Below the pieces are notes generated by a model. That model saw only the letters and a program-made list of their open reading frames with translations. It was not told the DNA's origin and made no database searches. Of a stretch of DNA of 6,261 nt, positions 1 through 5,930 are shown piece by piece. Position 1 is the stretch's first letter, and the number at the start of each line of letters is the position of its first letter. The position numbers and the translations under genes are program-made. The stretch comes from Deltaproteobacteria bacterium RIFOXYA12_FULL_61_11 (GTDB taxonomy: Bacteria > Bdellovibrionota_F > JAHFAK01 > YA12-FULL-61-11). Where the stretch lies: positions 599 to 6,859 of the forward strand of contig MGSU01000246.1 in NCBI GenBank assembly GCA_001799195.1, in the 5' to 3' direction.

Positions 1-2236
1 GATCATACCGCAAGAGCGGCATCAGCGCGCGTTCGAGATTGGTCACCACTACTCTACCTGCCCTTCCTACCGGACAAGGCAGATCGTCGTCGAGACCAAG
101 GAGTTCGAGGTGTTGGTGGCCGACGAGCAGATGATGTTCGGAACCTCGACAGTGGAGGCACTGATACCCCAGGGGGCCGGCATCCACGGTCCCGTACCCG
201 AAGGAGAGTACATCGTCTATCCCATAGGAGGCCAAGAGGGCTCGGTCTTCTTCGAAAACGTGCTCTCCGGCATAGAGGAAGCACTTGACCCCGGCAGAGC
301 GGAACCGCTCGCCGTGCTCGCGGACCAGACACAGGAAGGTAGACGGAATTCCGAGAACGGTATCGATGGAAAAAGCCTCCAGCGTTGCCAGCACCATCTC
401 GGTATCGGCATGACTGGTCAGAGGGAATACCTGACATCCCAGCAATTCAGCGATCTTGATCGAGGAAATAAAGGATCCATAAAGGGATCCTGCCGAAAAC
501 ATAGAAGCAACTCTACGCCCCGGTCGCAACCCGAGAGCATAGGGCCCTCGCGCTGCCGCGGCCATGTCGGCGGCGACATCCTCGAGGGAATAGAGCGAAT
601 ATTTTGGACGCCCCGAGGAACCACCGCTGCGGAAGACATAGCCGTCTCGCGGTTCGGAGCAGAAGAGCGCCCGCGAACGCGGGGGAACGAGATCGGGTAG
701 ATCCCGAGGCGAGAGCAGAGGAATCGACGCGAGGTCGTCGAGGCTGCGCAACTCGATTCCGTCCAGACGCTCCCGATAGTAGTCTGAGCCTTCTCTGGCT
801 CTGGCAACCCGAGCGCGCAAACGCCCCAGCACCAACCTCTCGAGCCGAGGAAGCGACAAAGTTTCTAGGGGAGAGTAGTAGGCTTCGTCGGATCCGACCT
901 CGGTAGAAACCCAACGCACCAACCTGCGCAAGGCATGCACCCCGTCATGGGGCTCACCGGGCACCCCGCCGCTCATCCCTTCGAGGGACGTGATCCGAGT
1001 GGCCCCAAGCAATTCGGCGATCTCGAGGAAACGGGACCGTTCTTCCCGGCTCGCTGCCAGCCCAATGGTCTGTAAATGGCCGCAGACCGCGGAGAGTTGT
1101 TCAAACAGGTATTCGGGGGTTTTCAGAGGGGAGACGAGCAAGGTACGATTGAGGGGAGAGAGCCGGAAACCTGGTTTCTCCTCGACAATGATGGTCCATT
1201 CCTGCCGGGAACCACTGGTACGCAAGCCACCCGTGCCAATGGCTGCGTTGAAAGCTGCAAGTTCTCGCTCCTTCGTCACCTCGGCAAGCTCATCGAGCGT
1301 TCGTCGGCCGAGAGGTAGAGTCGAAGCCAGTCGATCGAGCGTTTGGCATACATGGTCGAGGAAAGCCTCGAGTTCTGCTTCGCATAGGTCGGTGTAGAGG
1401 ACCTGAGGTGAAGAACAGGCCTGCTGATCCCATACCGCAACGCTATGTGCCAGTGCTTCGGCCAGGAGCTCGGCACCATAGCTTTTCACCGCTGCCGAGG
1501 TCACCACGGCTACGCTGAACTTGGGGCCGTATTCGATCGCCCTGCAGGTTACCGGGAGGCGGCCTCGGAGCTGCTTGACAACTTCCTCGCCTCCCCAGAC
1601 CACCACCCCATCGACCCCGCCATAGAACTCCCCGAGTACCGTGTCATCCCTCCCCGGGAGGTCGAGGACGGCAAAGCTCGAGGCCACGATCCCCTCGGGG
1701 TCACATGCTGTCACTGCCCGGGCGAATTCGAGAGCGAACCAGCGTTCGCGCGAGGACATTTTGATGATGTTGACGTTCTTGGTCAACAAACCCTCGACCA
1801 GGGTCAACACCGCGGTGAGGAAAACATTGCCGCTGGCTAAGTGTAATACCACCCCAAGCGGAGAGGCTTTGAGAAGTTGGCTCCTGCTACGATCATGGAC
1901 CGGGACGTCAAGCACCTCCAAACTGCCGAGTTCTTCCTTCACCTTTGCCTCAAGCATAGAGCGGTCGAGAGCATCGAGCAGGACGCCATACGCCAGATCA
2001 ACCATGGGAGTTGAAAAATTCGAACCGGCGGCAATGCGCTCGACAGAGGCTCGGCGACGTTCGACCTGAGAGAGGTGACCTCGCACCCGGTGGAGACACT
2101 CGACGATCTCCACGAAGGGGATTTCTTGCAGACTTTTCCGACGATTTCGTGCTTCGGCGAGGAGGGCGCGGGCCTGGTTAAGCTCGAACTGACCCTCAAC
2201 GGGTTTTCCAAACACCCAGTGAGCGACAATATCCAT
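1..2236 (-). CDS. LuxC-type acyl reductase fused to PaaK-type adenylate-forming ligase (partial, C-terminus beyond window)
   Basis: Read by hand from the reverse complement: ATG at 2236, then 745 codons with no stop to the window edge. Residues 1-443 match the LuxC family (NADPH-dependent reduction of an enzyme-bound acyl thioester to aldehyde): SPLGVVLHLASGNVF at 125-139, KNVNIIKMSS at 153-162, EYGPK at 235-239, WDQQACSSPQ at 269-278 with nucleophile candidate Cys274, NRTLLVSP at 363-370, LQTIGLA at 388-394 and HDGVHALRRLVRWV at 430-443. From about 450 a second domain opens as PaaK-type ligases do (YYSPLETLS, then YYRERL). It continues with an ATP-binding loop SGGSSGRPK (537-545), FGYGTVDAGPLGYQC (679-693) and RYD at 743-745, where ligases normally continue into GD. 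About 100 residues are probably missing. LuxC proteins are usually free-standing at roughly 480 residues, so the fusion is unusual. Family assignment is strong; substrate is unknown. Confidence 0.92.
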   Translation of the reverse strand, partial: MDIVAHWVFGKPVEGQFELNQARALLAEARNRRKSLQEIPFVEIVECLHRVRGHLSQVERRRASVERIAAGSNFSTPMVDLAYGVLLDALDRSMLEAKVKEELGSLEVLDVPVHDRSRSQLLKASPLGVVLHLASGNVFLTAVLTLVEGLLTKNVNIIKMSSRERWFALEFARAVTACDPEGIVASSFAVLDLPGRDDTVLGEFYGGVDGVVVWGGEEVVKQLRGRLPVTCRAIEYGPKFSVAVVTSAAVKSYGAELLAEALAHSVAVWDQQACSSPQVLYTDLCEAELEAFLDHVCQTLDRLASTLPLGRRTLDELAEVTKERELAAFNAAIGTGGLRTSGSRQEWTIIVEEKPGFRLSPLNRTLLVSPLKTPEYLFEQLSAVCGHLQTIGLAASREERSRFLEIAELLGATRITSLEGMSGGVPGEPHDGVHALRRLVRWVSTEVGSDEAYYSPLETLSLPRLERLVLGRLRARVARAREGSDYYRERLDGIELRSLDDLASIPLLSPRDLPDLVPPRSRALFCSEPRDGYVFRSGGSSGRPKYSLYSLEDVAADMAAAARGPYALGLRPGRRVASMFSAGSLYGSFISSIKIAELLGCQVFPLTSHADTEMVLATLEAFSIDTVLGIPSTFLCLVREHGERFRSAGVKCFLYAGEHVFEEDRALLASYGIDDVLSFGYGTVDAGPLGYQCLHCRGSEHHLLVGHQHLELLGLDDDLPCPVGRAGRVVVTNLERALMPLLRYD
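2..889 (-). other. PaaK-like adenylation domain of the fusion protein (partial)
   Basis: Residues 450-745. The P-loop reads SGGSSGRPK, where classical PaaK proteins have SSGTTGKP-like loops. The usual YG-x-(S/T)-E motif is replaced by YGTVD, giving Asp685 in place of Glu. A CLHC pair (Cys693, Cys696) followed by His701, His702, His707 and His709 could hold a metal, which is inference. The domain stops at the window edge, so the C-terminal lid and its catalytic lysine cannot be judged. CoA, a protein thiol, or the fused LuxC cysteine could be the acceptor. Confidence 0.85.
908..2236 (-). other. LuxC-like acyl-thioester reductase domain of the fusion protein
   Basis: Residues 1-443. The glycine-rich segment and KNVNIIK resemble the nucleotide-binding part of the aldehyde-dehydrogenase-like fold. 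Cys274 (codon 1415-1417) lies in DQQACSSPQ, the position of the acyl-accepting cysteine in characterised LuxC. In LuxC chemistry the acyl group passes from LuxE to this cysteine and is then reduced by NADPH. All family landmarks I can recall are present in order, so I expect an active reductase. Confidence 0.88.
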
Positions 2237-2240
2237 ACTA

Positions 2241-2246
2241 CCTCCT
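2241..2246 (-). promoter_or_regulatory. Strong Shine-Dalgarno of the LuxC-ligase fusion gene, overlapping the upstream stop codon
   Basis: On the minus strand AGGAGG stands four bases before the ATG at 2236. The AG of the TAG stop of the luxE-like gene (2245-2247) forms its first two bases. The intergenic gap is only eight bases. This fixes the start of the fusion gene and suggests translational coupling in one operon. Confidence 0.88.
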
Positions 2247-3366
2247 AGGAACCCGAGGCTTCCAAAGCGGCGATGGCACACCCCTTGTTCTTCCTGGTGC
2301 CGGCGCGACCGAGCAGCGTGAAGTAATCCGTCCCTCGGCCGCACGGGCAGCCGTGACCGCTCACGGCATAGTCGCTGGTCAGAATGGCCAGGGTTGGCAT
2401 GGCCAGGTTAAAAGGAGAGCAGAGTTCCAAGAGACCGACCTCACCATGCGGCAAGGGAGCGAGGGTTTCGGTGTCGCGAATGAGACTCCGAGCATACACC
2501 GGTACGTGCAACCGGTGATGCTCGCACTCCACGTAAGGCACCCCGTGCTCGACCATACCGAAACTGTCGCGAATATTGGCCGCGGGTAAGCCCAAAAAAC
2601 CGGCCAATCGCTCCACAAGTTCAGCCTTGGGTACCTCTTTGTCGCGGTGCACCTTCCAGCCGCCACCGGTGATGACGTGGCAACGTGGACCGAAGGCGAA
2701 GGGGGCTCCGCCCCGTCGTTCGTGTTCGAGCATAGCCAGATAGAGAAAGGAAGGGAAACCGATGAAGCGGGTAGGATACCCGCTGACCTGGAATTCAGCC
2801 ATCTTGGCCAGAACCTCGTCCACGGCAAAACGATAGTCACCGGTCCGCTCGTCAAAACGCAGGGCGAAAACCACCTCCCGCCTCGCGGTCAACTTGGTCA
2901 CGTTGTCATCGGTATACGACGTGCCACGTTCATTGCCACGACGGGGTTCCTGGACAAAGGCAATATAGTTGACCTCGAGGGTCGGATCTTTGAGCCCGAA
3001 GGCATCGAAGACCTTGGCGACCATACCCAGGCCGAGGTCGAGCGAAGCACGGTCGAAGAAGACTTGGCTGGTCTGGCCGGTGGTACCGCTCGAGGTCAGC
3101 CGCAACACTACTTGGTCGGCCGGAACCGAGAGCAAGGTATGGTGTTTGAGCACATTCACGAAAAGGTAGGGCAGGCGCCAGAGTGAGTCGAGATCGACGA
3201 ACTCATCCGGGACGAACCCCCGGTACCGGCACAGCGCACGATACTCGGGGCAATGATCATAGTGATGCTCGACCGCGGCCTGCATGGCCGCGAGGAAGAG
3301 CGTGTCGGCCTCTTGTCCTGAAAAAAAAGGCGTGGGGTGGGTACAAAGCAGGTCTCGAGCTTCCAT
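2245..3366 (-). CDS. LuxE-type acyl-protein synthetase (LuxE/PaaK family acyltransferase)
   Basis: A complete 373-residue protein, close to the roughly 370-380 residues of characterised LuxE. LuxE activates a fatty acid as acyl-AMP, carries it as a thioester on its own cysteine and hands it to LuxC. Visible motifs: ATP-binding loop TSSGTTGQTS at 91-100, TGGGWK at 233-238, DSFGMVEHG at 267-275, ECEHHRLHVP at 280-289, CPCGRGTDYF at 340-349 and GRAGTRKNKGC ending at Cys363. Vibrio harveyi LuxE is acylated on Cys364 near its C-terminus, so Cys363 is the expected acyl-carrying residue. ATG 3366 is the only ATG in frame within the preceding ~90 bases. A GAGGA lies upstream (3379-3383) but 12 bases away, longer than ideal. 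First gene of an operon with the LuxC-ligase fusion. The chain length and nature of the acid are unknown, and nothing here points to luciferase. Confidence 0.9.
   Translation of the reverse strand: MEARDLLCTHPTPFFSGQEADTLFLAAMQAAVEHHYDHCPEYRALCRYRGFVPDEFVDLDSLWRLPYLFVNVLKHHTLLSVPADQVVLRLTSSGTTGQTSQVFFDRASLDLGLGMVAKVFDAFGLKDPTLEVNYIAFVQEPRRGNERGTSYTDDNVTKLTARREVVFALRFDERTGDYRFAVDEVLAKMAEFQVSGYPTRFIGFPSFLYLAMLEHERRGGAPFAFGPRCHVITGGGWKVHRDKEVPKAELVERLAGFLGLPAANIRDSFGMVEHGVPYVECEHHRLHVPVYARSLIRDTETLAPLPHGEVGLLELCSPFNLAMPTLAILTSDYAVSGHGCPCGRGTDYFTLLGRAGTRKNKGCAIAALEASGS
3321..3328 (-). repeat. Homopolymer tract of eight T (coding strand) near the 5' end of the luxE-like gene
   Basis: The plus strand has eight consecutive A; on the coding strand they encode Phe14-Phe15 between Pro13 and Ser16. 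A one-base slip would truncate LuxE within its first residues. The gene is in frame here. Confidence 0.9.
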
Positions 3367-3536: not shown

Positions 3537-5930
3537 ATGTTCAATCTTGCGAAACTCCTACTGATGCCTTTCTTTGTTCTCATCCTGTCCTGTCAGATCG
3601 TCGATTCGACGGACGAGGACGAACCCGGAAGCGACGACGATAAAAAGGATAATGCCAGACAAGAAGACACCGTCAAGGTCGCAGACCTTGCCCAGAGCGA
3701 TCTGGTCACCACCACCGGCAACCTCAAGCCCAAAGGAGACCCCCTGACCCTGAACAAGGTCGAGGGTATGCTCGAATCCATCATTGGACCACTCCAGGTC
3801 GCCGGGGGACAGAGTGACGAAGCCGTGGCAAAATTCTCCACCAAGCTCCTGCAGTACAACCTCGGTCAAGATCTCCGGGGCTTGATCGCAAAGATCAGGC
3901 CCAGCCTGCGCGAGACCGTGGTCCAACGCAACGGCATCAAGTTCTTACGACAACTCAACGAAGACCAGGAAGAGGATGGACCCCCGGACTGCATCACCTT
4001 CAGCCCGGCCTGGACCGAATTCGAGGCCTTCGGTGAGGCCATGAACGATCCAGATGACGAGGACAACCTGGCGACCGTGCAGGACTTTCTGAAAGGACTC
4101 GACGCCAGCGCCACCATCGCCACTGGCTGTGACATGGGAGACGGTACTATCGGCGAGGGGACACTCACCGCCAAGGCAGACGAGGGCATCGACCTCACCT
4201 GGGATGCAACCGCCCCCGACAATCGCAAACTCGCCGCGCTGAAAGGCAAGCTGACCTTGACCGCTACCGGTATCAAGATCGAAAATACTGCCGAGGGTTC
4301 CTTCGTGCGGATCGGCGGGAAACTGCTACCGCGTGTCGACCTGGTCAACGAAGCCGCGAAGTTCCGCCTCGACGCGGGTCTCAATCTCGAAGATTTCACC
4401 GCGCATGTCAGCCAATTCCTCGACGAGGTCATTTCTGAGAATCTTGATAGTGAGGAGAATGGACCACCCATGACACCTCCCTACCAACCCCAACAAGATC
4501 CCTGGGAACAACCGGATACAGACTGCCCTCCCCGTCCTGCAGACTGGCCGGCCGACAGTCCCTGGTGCGATGATACCAATACTCTTCCCGAGGACGATTA
4601 CACCTACTACCTGACTCAGGACGATCCTCCGGACGACGACTATCTCTTCGAAGACAGCTCGGACGACGAATTCTGGACCATGGATATGTCCGACGATCAA
4701 TGGGATGAACCCGTCTATCAACCATATAACCCCTATGACGGTCAGTACCAACCTGTGGGCTACGGTTACGGAGAACCCGAAGAGCCCACGGACACCGAGG
4801 TCAAGCTCGCCGCAAACGGTTCGGTTTCCTTGCTCCTAGAAGAAATACCGACAAAATTCCTGGTCCAAGCCGCCGCGGACCTCAATCTCTCTGAGGTGCT
4901 CTTTAAAGAGTTACCGGAAGACGGCAGCACTGGCACAACCATGGCAATGAAGGGGACCAACAAGGGTTCTCTCGACCTGAACCTTGAACCGACCTCAGCA
5001 CATCTCAAGGCATCCTTGAAATCTGACCTCGAGCTCAATATGACCCCTGCCGGGGAGAACCCTTACAAACTCCTCCTCGAGCAATCGTTCGAATTCGACG
5101 GTCAAGCCACGGGCACAGGCCTCAAATCCGACATCATCCTGGAGACCGGAGCCGATTACGAGGGCCAGATTGAATCCCTCTCCTACACCCTCTCGCTGGC
5201 CCAATCCGGGACGATCGACGCACCGGATCAAATGAACGGTACAATCGGCTATACGATCGACTCCTCTGGCAGTATCGATCGAGAGAAGCTCGACTTCGTG
5301 ATCAAGTTCGACCCCGAGGTGAGCTTCCTCAACCCGCAGAAAAAAGAACTCGATCTTGAGGACTTGGACTTCGACGGTTATTTTGAACTCGGTCTCAAGT
5401 TCGATCAGATGGACTGGGGCGATGCCTTCCTCGAAGATGACCTCAAGGTCATTGCTGGCTCGCTCTGGCTGTCCTTCTCGGTCGAATTCACCTCCAAGGA
5501 AACCACCGAGACCATCCCCTTGTCCCTGATCGTCCGGGCACCGATCAAGGACAACGAGGTCGACCCAACGACGATCGAGTACCTCATCAAGGCCTCGGAC
5601 GGTAGTTATTACCTGATCGAATTCGAAGAGGACTACGAGGGCAACGCTGACCTCGCTCTGACCCTTATCGACGAAGCCGGCAACAAGGCCTTCTTGGAAT
5701 TCGACTTCGACGAGGACACGACCGAGAACTACACCGTGACGGCAACCCTTACCCCGGCCGGTGGCGGCGCACCAGAAACCTCGACCTTCGCGGGCTCGAC
5801 TTTCACCATCTTCCGGGAAATGAGCAAAATGGGAGAAGAGATGAGCGGTGAACTCGATGAAGAAATGTTCACCGAAGAAGAAAAAAATCCGGAGATCCCA
5901 GAACCTCTCCAACCTCAAATAACCTGGTAA
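3537..5930 (+). CDS. Large acidic secreted lipoprotein, unrecognised family
   Basis: 797 residues from ATG 3537. Residues 1-18 form a lipoprotein signal: Lys6, a hydrophobic core, then ILSC, with Cys19 as the lipidation site. Gln at +2 favours outer-membrane sorting by the E. coli rule. An acidic tether follows (about 22-44, rich in Asp and Glu). Residues 60-190 look largely helical. Residues 202-286 and 421-751 show alternating polar/hydrophobic patterns typical of beta-strands, with many Gly, Thr and Ser. Between them, 309-418 is a low-complexity linker rich in Asp, Pro, Tyr and Trp, with Cys330 and Cys344 as a possible disulfide; Cys152 and Cys198 are the other mature cysteines. The tail (757-797) is Glu- and Met-rich. 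I recognise no catalytic motif or named domain. A structural, binding or envelope-transport role is conceivable but not shown. It heads a likely operon with the exported protein 27 bases downstream and diverges from the LuxE/LuxC operon. Confidence 0.88.
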   Translation: MFNLAKLLLMPFFVLILSCQIVDSTDEDEPGSDDDKKDNARQEDTVKVADLAQSDLVTTTGNLKPKGDPLTLNKVEGMLESIIGPLQVAGGQSDEAVAKFSTKLLQYNLGQDLRGLIAKIRPSLRETVVQRNGIKFLRQLNEDQEEDGPPDCITFSPAWTEFEAFGEAMNDPDDEDNLATVQDFLKGLDASATIATGCDMGDGTIGEGTLTAKADEGIDLTWDATAPDNRKLAALKGKLTLTATGIKIENTAEGSFVRIGGKLLPRVDLVNEAAKFRLDAGLNLEDFTAHVSQFLDEVISENLDSEENGPPMTPPYQPQQDPWEQPDTDCPPRPADWPADSPWCDDTNTLPEDDYTYYLTQDDPPDDDYLFEDSSDDEFWTMDMSDDQWDEPVYQPYNPYDGQYQPVGYGYGEPEEPTDTEVKLAANGSVSLLLEEIPTKFLVQAAADLNLSEVLFKELPEDGSTGTTMAMKGTNKGSLDLNLEPTSAHLKASLKSDLELNMTPAGENPYKLLLEQSFEFDGQATGTGLKSDIILETGADYEGQIESLSYTLSLAQSGTIDAPDQMNGTIGYTIDSSGSIDREKLDFVIKFDPEVSFLNPQKKELDLEDLDFDGYFELGLKFDQMDWGDAFLEDDLKVIAGSLWLSFSVEFTSKETTETIPLSLIVRAPIKDNEVDPTTIEYLIKASDGSYYLIEFEEDYEGNADLALTLIDEAGNKAFLEFDFDEDTTENYTVTATLTPAGGGAPETSTFAGSTFTIFREMSKMGEEMSGELDEEMFTEEEKNPEIPEPLQPQITW
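4461..4790 (+). other. Asp/Pro/Tyr/Trp-rich linker of the lipoprotein
   Basis: Residues 309-418 of the lipoprotein, between its two beta-rich regions. The first third is Pro/Gln/Trp-rich with two cysteines (330 and 344). The middle is dominated by Asp with aromatic residues. The last third carries PY and GY units such as QPYNPYDGQYQP. It is probably disordered and surface-exposed. Its sequence is distinct from the flanking regions. Confidence 0.75.

Follow-up and report, generated by a model that had tools for sequence, protein, structure and literature searches.

What does a LuxC-type acyl reductase do when its reading frame runs on into a PaaK-type ligase? The question is raised by a stretch of 6,261 nucleotides (the window) in the 4.64 Mb draft genome of Deltaproteobacteria bacterium RIFOXYA12_FULL_61_11, where it occupies positions 599 to 6859 of contig MGSU01000246.1 (C246:599-6859). 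A sequence-only reading had taken the gene for an uncommon, self-contained activating-and-reducing enzyme, similar in logic to a carboxylic acid reductase (CAR).

The fusion gene and its LuxE partner

On the minus strand, a frame starting at position 2236 runs for 745 codons without a stop and is still open at window base 2 (Table 1). That LuxC and a PaaK-type ligase share one polypeptide was borne out, since each half found matches in Pfam, NCBIfam and PDB. The LuxC domain scored 263.7 bits with PF05893, against a gathering score of 21, and residues 64-446 aligned with PDB chain 7xc6_A at E 4e-30; the alignment likewise confirmed Cys274 as the LuxC catalytic cysteine. The ligase half matched the NCBIfam models for DVU_1553-type AMP ligases (residues 441-744, E 4e-20) and PaaK (TIGR02155, residues 458-744, E 5e-16) as well as the PaaK structures 4r1l/2y4o (residues 452-744, E 1e-16), so that both NCBIfam and PDB place an adenylation domain past residue 450, where it had been proposed. 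It carries the P-loop A3, which in its wider context reads RSGGSSGRPK, and the A5 motif of the PaaK/ANL enzymes. With Pfam AMP-binding, residues 537-731 of this domain, which is cut by the window end, gave E 4e-4 and 19.7 bits, below the cut-off of 29.9 bits; the complete Bdellovibrionia relative at locus L005 also stayed below the cut-off, whereas Streptomyces and Salmonella relatives passed it. No PP-binding (carrier) domain was matched by Pfam in the window protein or in full-length relatives, as the sequence-only reading had held. When the window fusion was modelled from a three-sequence alignment, the predicted structure reached a pLDDT of 44, too poor for use.

Table 1. Positions of the fusion gene, the luxE gene and their predicted functional elements in the window
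Feature	Position	Strand	Basis
LuxC::PaaK fusion, N-terminal 745 residues	2..2236	-	ATG at 2236; 3' end of gene outside the window, in assembly gap
PaaK-type adenylation domain, residues 453-745, C-terminal part cut off	2..880	-	NCBIfam PaaK / DVU_1553, PDB 4r1l, 2y4o
PaaK A5 motif, YGTVD	182..196	-	alignment
PaaK phosphate-binding loop A3, RSGGSSG	611..631	-	alignment
LuxC (acyl reductase) domain, residues 38-442	911..2125	-	PF05893 E 3.4e-78
LuxC catalytic Cys274	1415..1417	-	alignment; conserved in 27/27 sequences
Shine-Dalgarno-like AGGAGGT of fusion gene	2240..2246	-	read from sequence; overlaps LuxE stop codon 2245-2247
LuxE acyl-protein synthetase, 373 aa, upstream partner gene	2245..3366	-	PF04443 E 5e-38; PDB 7xc6_E E 2e-23
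LuxE Cys363, acyl-accepting C-terminal Cys	2278..2280	-	alignment with Photorhabdus LuxE
LuxE adenylation P-loop, TSSGTTG	3076..3096	-	alignment

A LuxE partner, which the sequence-only reading had left out, is encoded in the same window just upstream of the fusion gene and ends 8 nt before it. It scored 131 bits with PF04443 (cut-off 24.9) and also matched the PaaK models of NCBIfam, PaaK and LuxE being distantly related. From the overlap between the Shine-Dalgarno-like element and the LuxE stop codon, translational coupling of the two genes is likely. Divergent from the LuxE gene, window positions 3540-5927 (plus strand) encode a large, acidic predicted lipoprotein of 796 aa with a lipobox-like LSCQ near its start, for which Pfam and NCBIfam gave no match.

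To the left of the window, a run of 245 N (C246:354-598, L001:354-598) hides the C-terminus of the fusion and blocks leftward extension; the 353 bases beyond it encode a TPR fragment on the opposite strand. Full-length fusion relatives have a complete ANL C-terminal part with its A10 Lys, which in the window gene is concealed by this gap. In the same genome, contig C270 starts with a C-terminal ligase piece (fusion-profile positions 756-833, E 3e-4) that carries an A10-type Lys (EHSGKRRK) and ends in HSGKRRKLIDRRKL, with a gene for a second PaaK beginning two bases past it; the window piece spans positions 1-701 of the same profile. Because the gene order is the same as in L005, we think, from this order and not from the assembly, that C270 continues the window operon. 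Against this, the join crosses the assembly gap, where the scaffold puts the TPR coding fragment and not C270, and the C270 piece matches the second-PaaK profile nearly as well as the fusion profile (24 and 28 bits, respectively). The TPR fragment and C270 cannot both directly follow the fusion, so the scaffold join, or else the size of the gap, is open to doubt.

Relatives of the fusion and the genes around it

Full-length fusions of 790-892 aa were found in two Bdellovibrionia MAGs, on plasmids of Streptantibioticus cattleyicolor and two Streptomyces, and on two plasmids of Salmonella enterica. A frameshift or chimera artefact was ruled out by the complete Streptomyces and Salmonella plasmids, which carry the fusion as a single ORF. 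A profile built from seven fusions and searched over 290 sampled Bdellovibrionota genomes (E ≤ 1e-60) matched 80 of them; three held the ligase half only, which left 77 genomes with a LuxC part, nearly always fused. The LuxC::PaaK fusion is thus neither an artefact nor a one-off, and "uncommon" proved too strong a word for an architecture found in about a quarter of the sampled genomes. A scan of viral contigs returned no relative, and the Salmonella cassette had no near counterpart in E. coli genomes.

In one of the 77 genomes (G131), LuxC and PaaK are adjacent separate genes. As these nest within fused groups in both trees (support 100/100 for LuxC and 100/94 for PaaK), they look like the product of a later split of the fusion. 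The window fusion sits by itself on a long branch. A single origin of the fusion was considered and is not shown by these trees, since the fused LuxC domains do not group together to the exclusion of stand-alone LuxC (4 changes in the tree) and the PaaK domain of one fusion group falls apart from the other PaaK domains.

Among sequences only about 30% identical, the LuxC, LuxE and PaaK residue sets were all kept. The catalytic Cys of LuxC was present in all 27 aligned sequences and the C-terminal Cys of LuxE in 25 of 25 aligned to Photorhabdus LuxE; every aligned fused protein had the P-loop SGG[ST][ST]G, and the A10 Lys was found in each one that reached its C-terminus.

The Bdellovibrionia genome of L005 has a second, divergent fusion paralogue (L022:9261-11924), accompanied by a LuxE and a second PaaK of its own. 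On a Streptomyces europaeiscabiei plasmid (L021:2359-10817), stand-alone LuxE and LuxC genes adjoin YcaO and DUF692 genes, which suggests a gene cluster for a modified peptide whose synthesis includes the reduction of a carboxylate; this LuxC is 51% identical to the LuxC part of a Streptomyces fusion. Streptomyces sp. NBC_01343 (L064:5851-10462) encodes an ATP-grasp protein, a 721-aa protein and an MFS protein in the vicinity of genes for aspartate kinase and aspartate-semialdehyde dehydrogenase; the ligase half of the 721-aa protein groups with the PaaK domains of one fusion group, and its N-terminal part was not recognised.

Gene neighbourhoods were compared at 37 fused loci and one split locus. 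LuxE lies directly upstream of the fusion at all 37 and likewise directly upstream of the split LuxC (L055). At most loci LuxE has a GNAT-type protein (about 380 aa) as its neighbour, and a second PaaK gene lies near the fusion; the adjacent second PaaK was missing from one fusion group of seven loci (L050-L054, L056, L057). MFS genes recur and share an operon with the fusion in L005, L009 and L042, whereas several other fusion loci have no MFS gene beside them. Apart from the families of the cassette itself, no gene family common to the diverse neighbourhoods was seen, and PADLOC gave no defence-system match. At one Bdellovibrionota locus (L049:10548-12005), histidine-kinase-like ATPase and GNAT domains are joined in a single protein directly after the fusion.

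GNAT and LuxC tend to occur in the same genomes: of the 77 Bdellovibrionota genomes with a LuxC part, 75 have a member of the GNAT family, as do 9 of the remaining 213 (Fisher p 2e-56, a value that ignores kinship). A search of plasmids for GNAT returned only four Streptomyces/Streptantibioticus records, every one with the fusion, the Salmonella GNAT being too distant to be caught. In the genome of the window, neither GNAT nor second PaaK lies on the window contig. The second PaaK is on C270, and AjiA1 and PaaK-like ligases rank among its closest PDB chains; the GNAT relative lies by itself on contig C212 (30% identity, E 7e-48). Since gene order does not account for its presence there, we see in it the strongest indication that GNAT and the cassette are functionally linked. 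Two more PaaK-like genes of this genome lie on contig C48 (L023:322-12000), beside several radical-SAM-like and methanofuran-biosynthesis-like genes recognised by eye.

A proposed pathway and its alternatives

These results do not support a self-contained enzyme, as a LuxE with its acyl Cys accompanies the fusion at all 37 fused loci examined, and the one in the window also has its P-loop. The best explanation, which we consider probable with a fair margin for error, is that LuxE and LuxC::PaaK in the window are part of a small biosynthetic cassette that works without a carrier protein. Besides these two genes, the cassette would comprise GNAT, in most cases a second PaaK and, at certain loci, an MFS exporter. 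In the lux fatty acid reductase, LuxE is well established as the enzyme that loads LuxC. By analogy, LuxE would adenylate a carboxylic acid and hold the acyl group on its C-terminal Cys, and the LuxC domain would receive it on Cys274 and reduce it to the aldehyde. Both PaaK units, the fused domain and the separate enzyme, may adenylate one or more further acids, for conversion to acyl-CoA or for direct condensation, while the GNAT-type protein would couple an amine with an acyl group. The completed product, a small molecule derived from an aldehyde, would be exported, by the MFS pump where there is one, and the fusion itself would keep the reduced intermediate beside the ligase that uses it. 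Since LuxE is upstream at every locus examined and the residues for loading of LuxC by LuxE are all kept, the fused PaaK domain most likely adds an activation step and does not substitute for LuxE.

PaaK-like enzymes with comparable tasks are on record: AjiA1 and NatL2 are enzymes of benzoxazole pathways (PMC8388817), and FevW was proposed to condense two molecules via adenylation in bagremycin/ferroverdin synthesis (PMC6692506). By analogy, the PaaK-like enzymes, the GNAT protein and the exporter at some loci suggest a small metabolite put together from parts, one of which derives from an aldehyde.

A CAR-like enzyme could still be reconciled with the presence of LuxE if the fused PaaK domain activated an acid, as AMP ester or CoA thioester, for the LuxC domain of the same chain and LuxE served another step. 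Two active sites on one chain, the retention of all checked ANL motifs in full-length relatives and the annotation of LuxC-type enzymes as acyl-CoA reductases would agree with this. However, LuxE keeps its acyl Cys throughout the fused loci without having another reductase partner in the cassette, and the one lineage in which the domains are adjacent separate genes still retains the cassette; we therefore regard such an enzyme as unlikely, if worth keeping in mind. It is very improbable that the PaaK domain has lost its own catalysis and acts as a degenerate scaffold or regulator of a LuxE-LuxC complex. The P-loop, A5 motif and A10 Lys are kept in very divergent relatives, implying selection for catalysis, and although the AMP-binding score of the window is weak, and a LuxE that matches PaaK models is itself a distant relative of PaaK, the copies from Streptomyces and Salmonella score above the Pfam cut-off.

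The aldehyde made by LuxE and LuxC might also be used on a cell-surface component, as a lipid or surface-glycan modification, and not in a secreted molecule. A possible precedent is found in the flagellar glycosylation islands of Aeromonas, which carry luxE and luxC with a carrier protein gene and an AMP-ligase gene (PMC7874193), and the fusion loci that lack an MFS gene would fit it as well. Yet the diverse neighbourhoods share only the gene families of the cassette, and MFS genes recur at several loci, which makes surface modification rather improbable. More tentatively, and with a little less than even confidence, we propose that GNAT–LuxE–LuxC::PaaK–PaaK may constitute an undescribed type of carrier-free pathway for a secreted aldehyde-derived metabolite, common to Bdellovibrionota, Streptomyces, Salmonella plasmids and the poorly known lineage to which the window belongs.

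Known systems

The component families are already known; neither the fusion nor the cassette was found described in the open-access library searched, which misses most subscription papers, and two matches there that mention LuxC were reporter constructs. LuxC and LuxE are known chiefly from light production. Here they form the core of a gene set conserved in bacteria from distant phyla, at least one of these bacteria being without detectable luciferase, and this set is small enough to be transferred whole to a laboratory host, so that its product can be searched for directly. Should a carrier-free route to aldehyde metabolites be true, it would represent a new type of small pathway, perhaps one missed by genome-mining rules.

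With the lux fatty acid reductase (luxCDABE), the window shares a LuxC domain with catalytic Cys and a neighbouring LuxE that has both a P-loop and a C-terminal acyl Cys, and the best solved relatives of the two are chains A and E of PDB 7xc6. It differs in that LuxC is fused to a PaaK domain. The window LuxC scored 129.4 bits against the 750 required by the bioluminescence LuxC equivalog NF052251, and its LuxE, at 114 bits, stayed far below the NCBIfam LuxE cut-off of 550. As the genome, 87% complete, gave no match to luciferase LuxAB (PF00296), a bioluminescence system was rejected.

The PaaK ligases, including AjiA1/NatL2 and BagE/FevW, belong to the same ANL subfamily and share the P-loop and the A5 motif, to which full-length relatives add the C-terminal part and its A10 Lys. 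In contrast to them, the window domain sits behind LuxC, the fused proteins have their own form of P-loop, and every PaaK equivalog cut-off was missed; for phenylacetate-CoA ligase (TIGR02155) the domain, cut by the window end, gave 58.4 of 646 bits. CAR, finally, likewise has acid-activation and reduction parts on a single chain, but the order in the fusion is reductase then ligase, no carrier domain was found in it by Pfam, its reductase is a LuxC of the aldehyde-dehydrogenase type, and a separate LuxE stands alongside.
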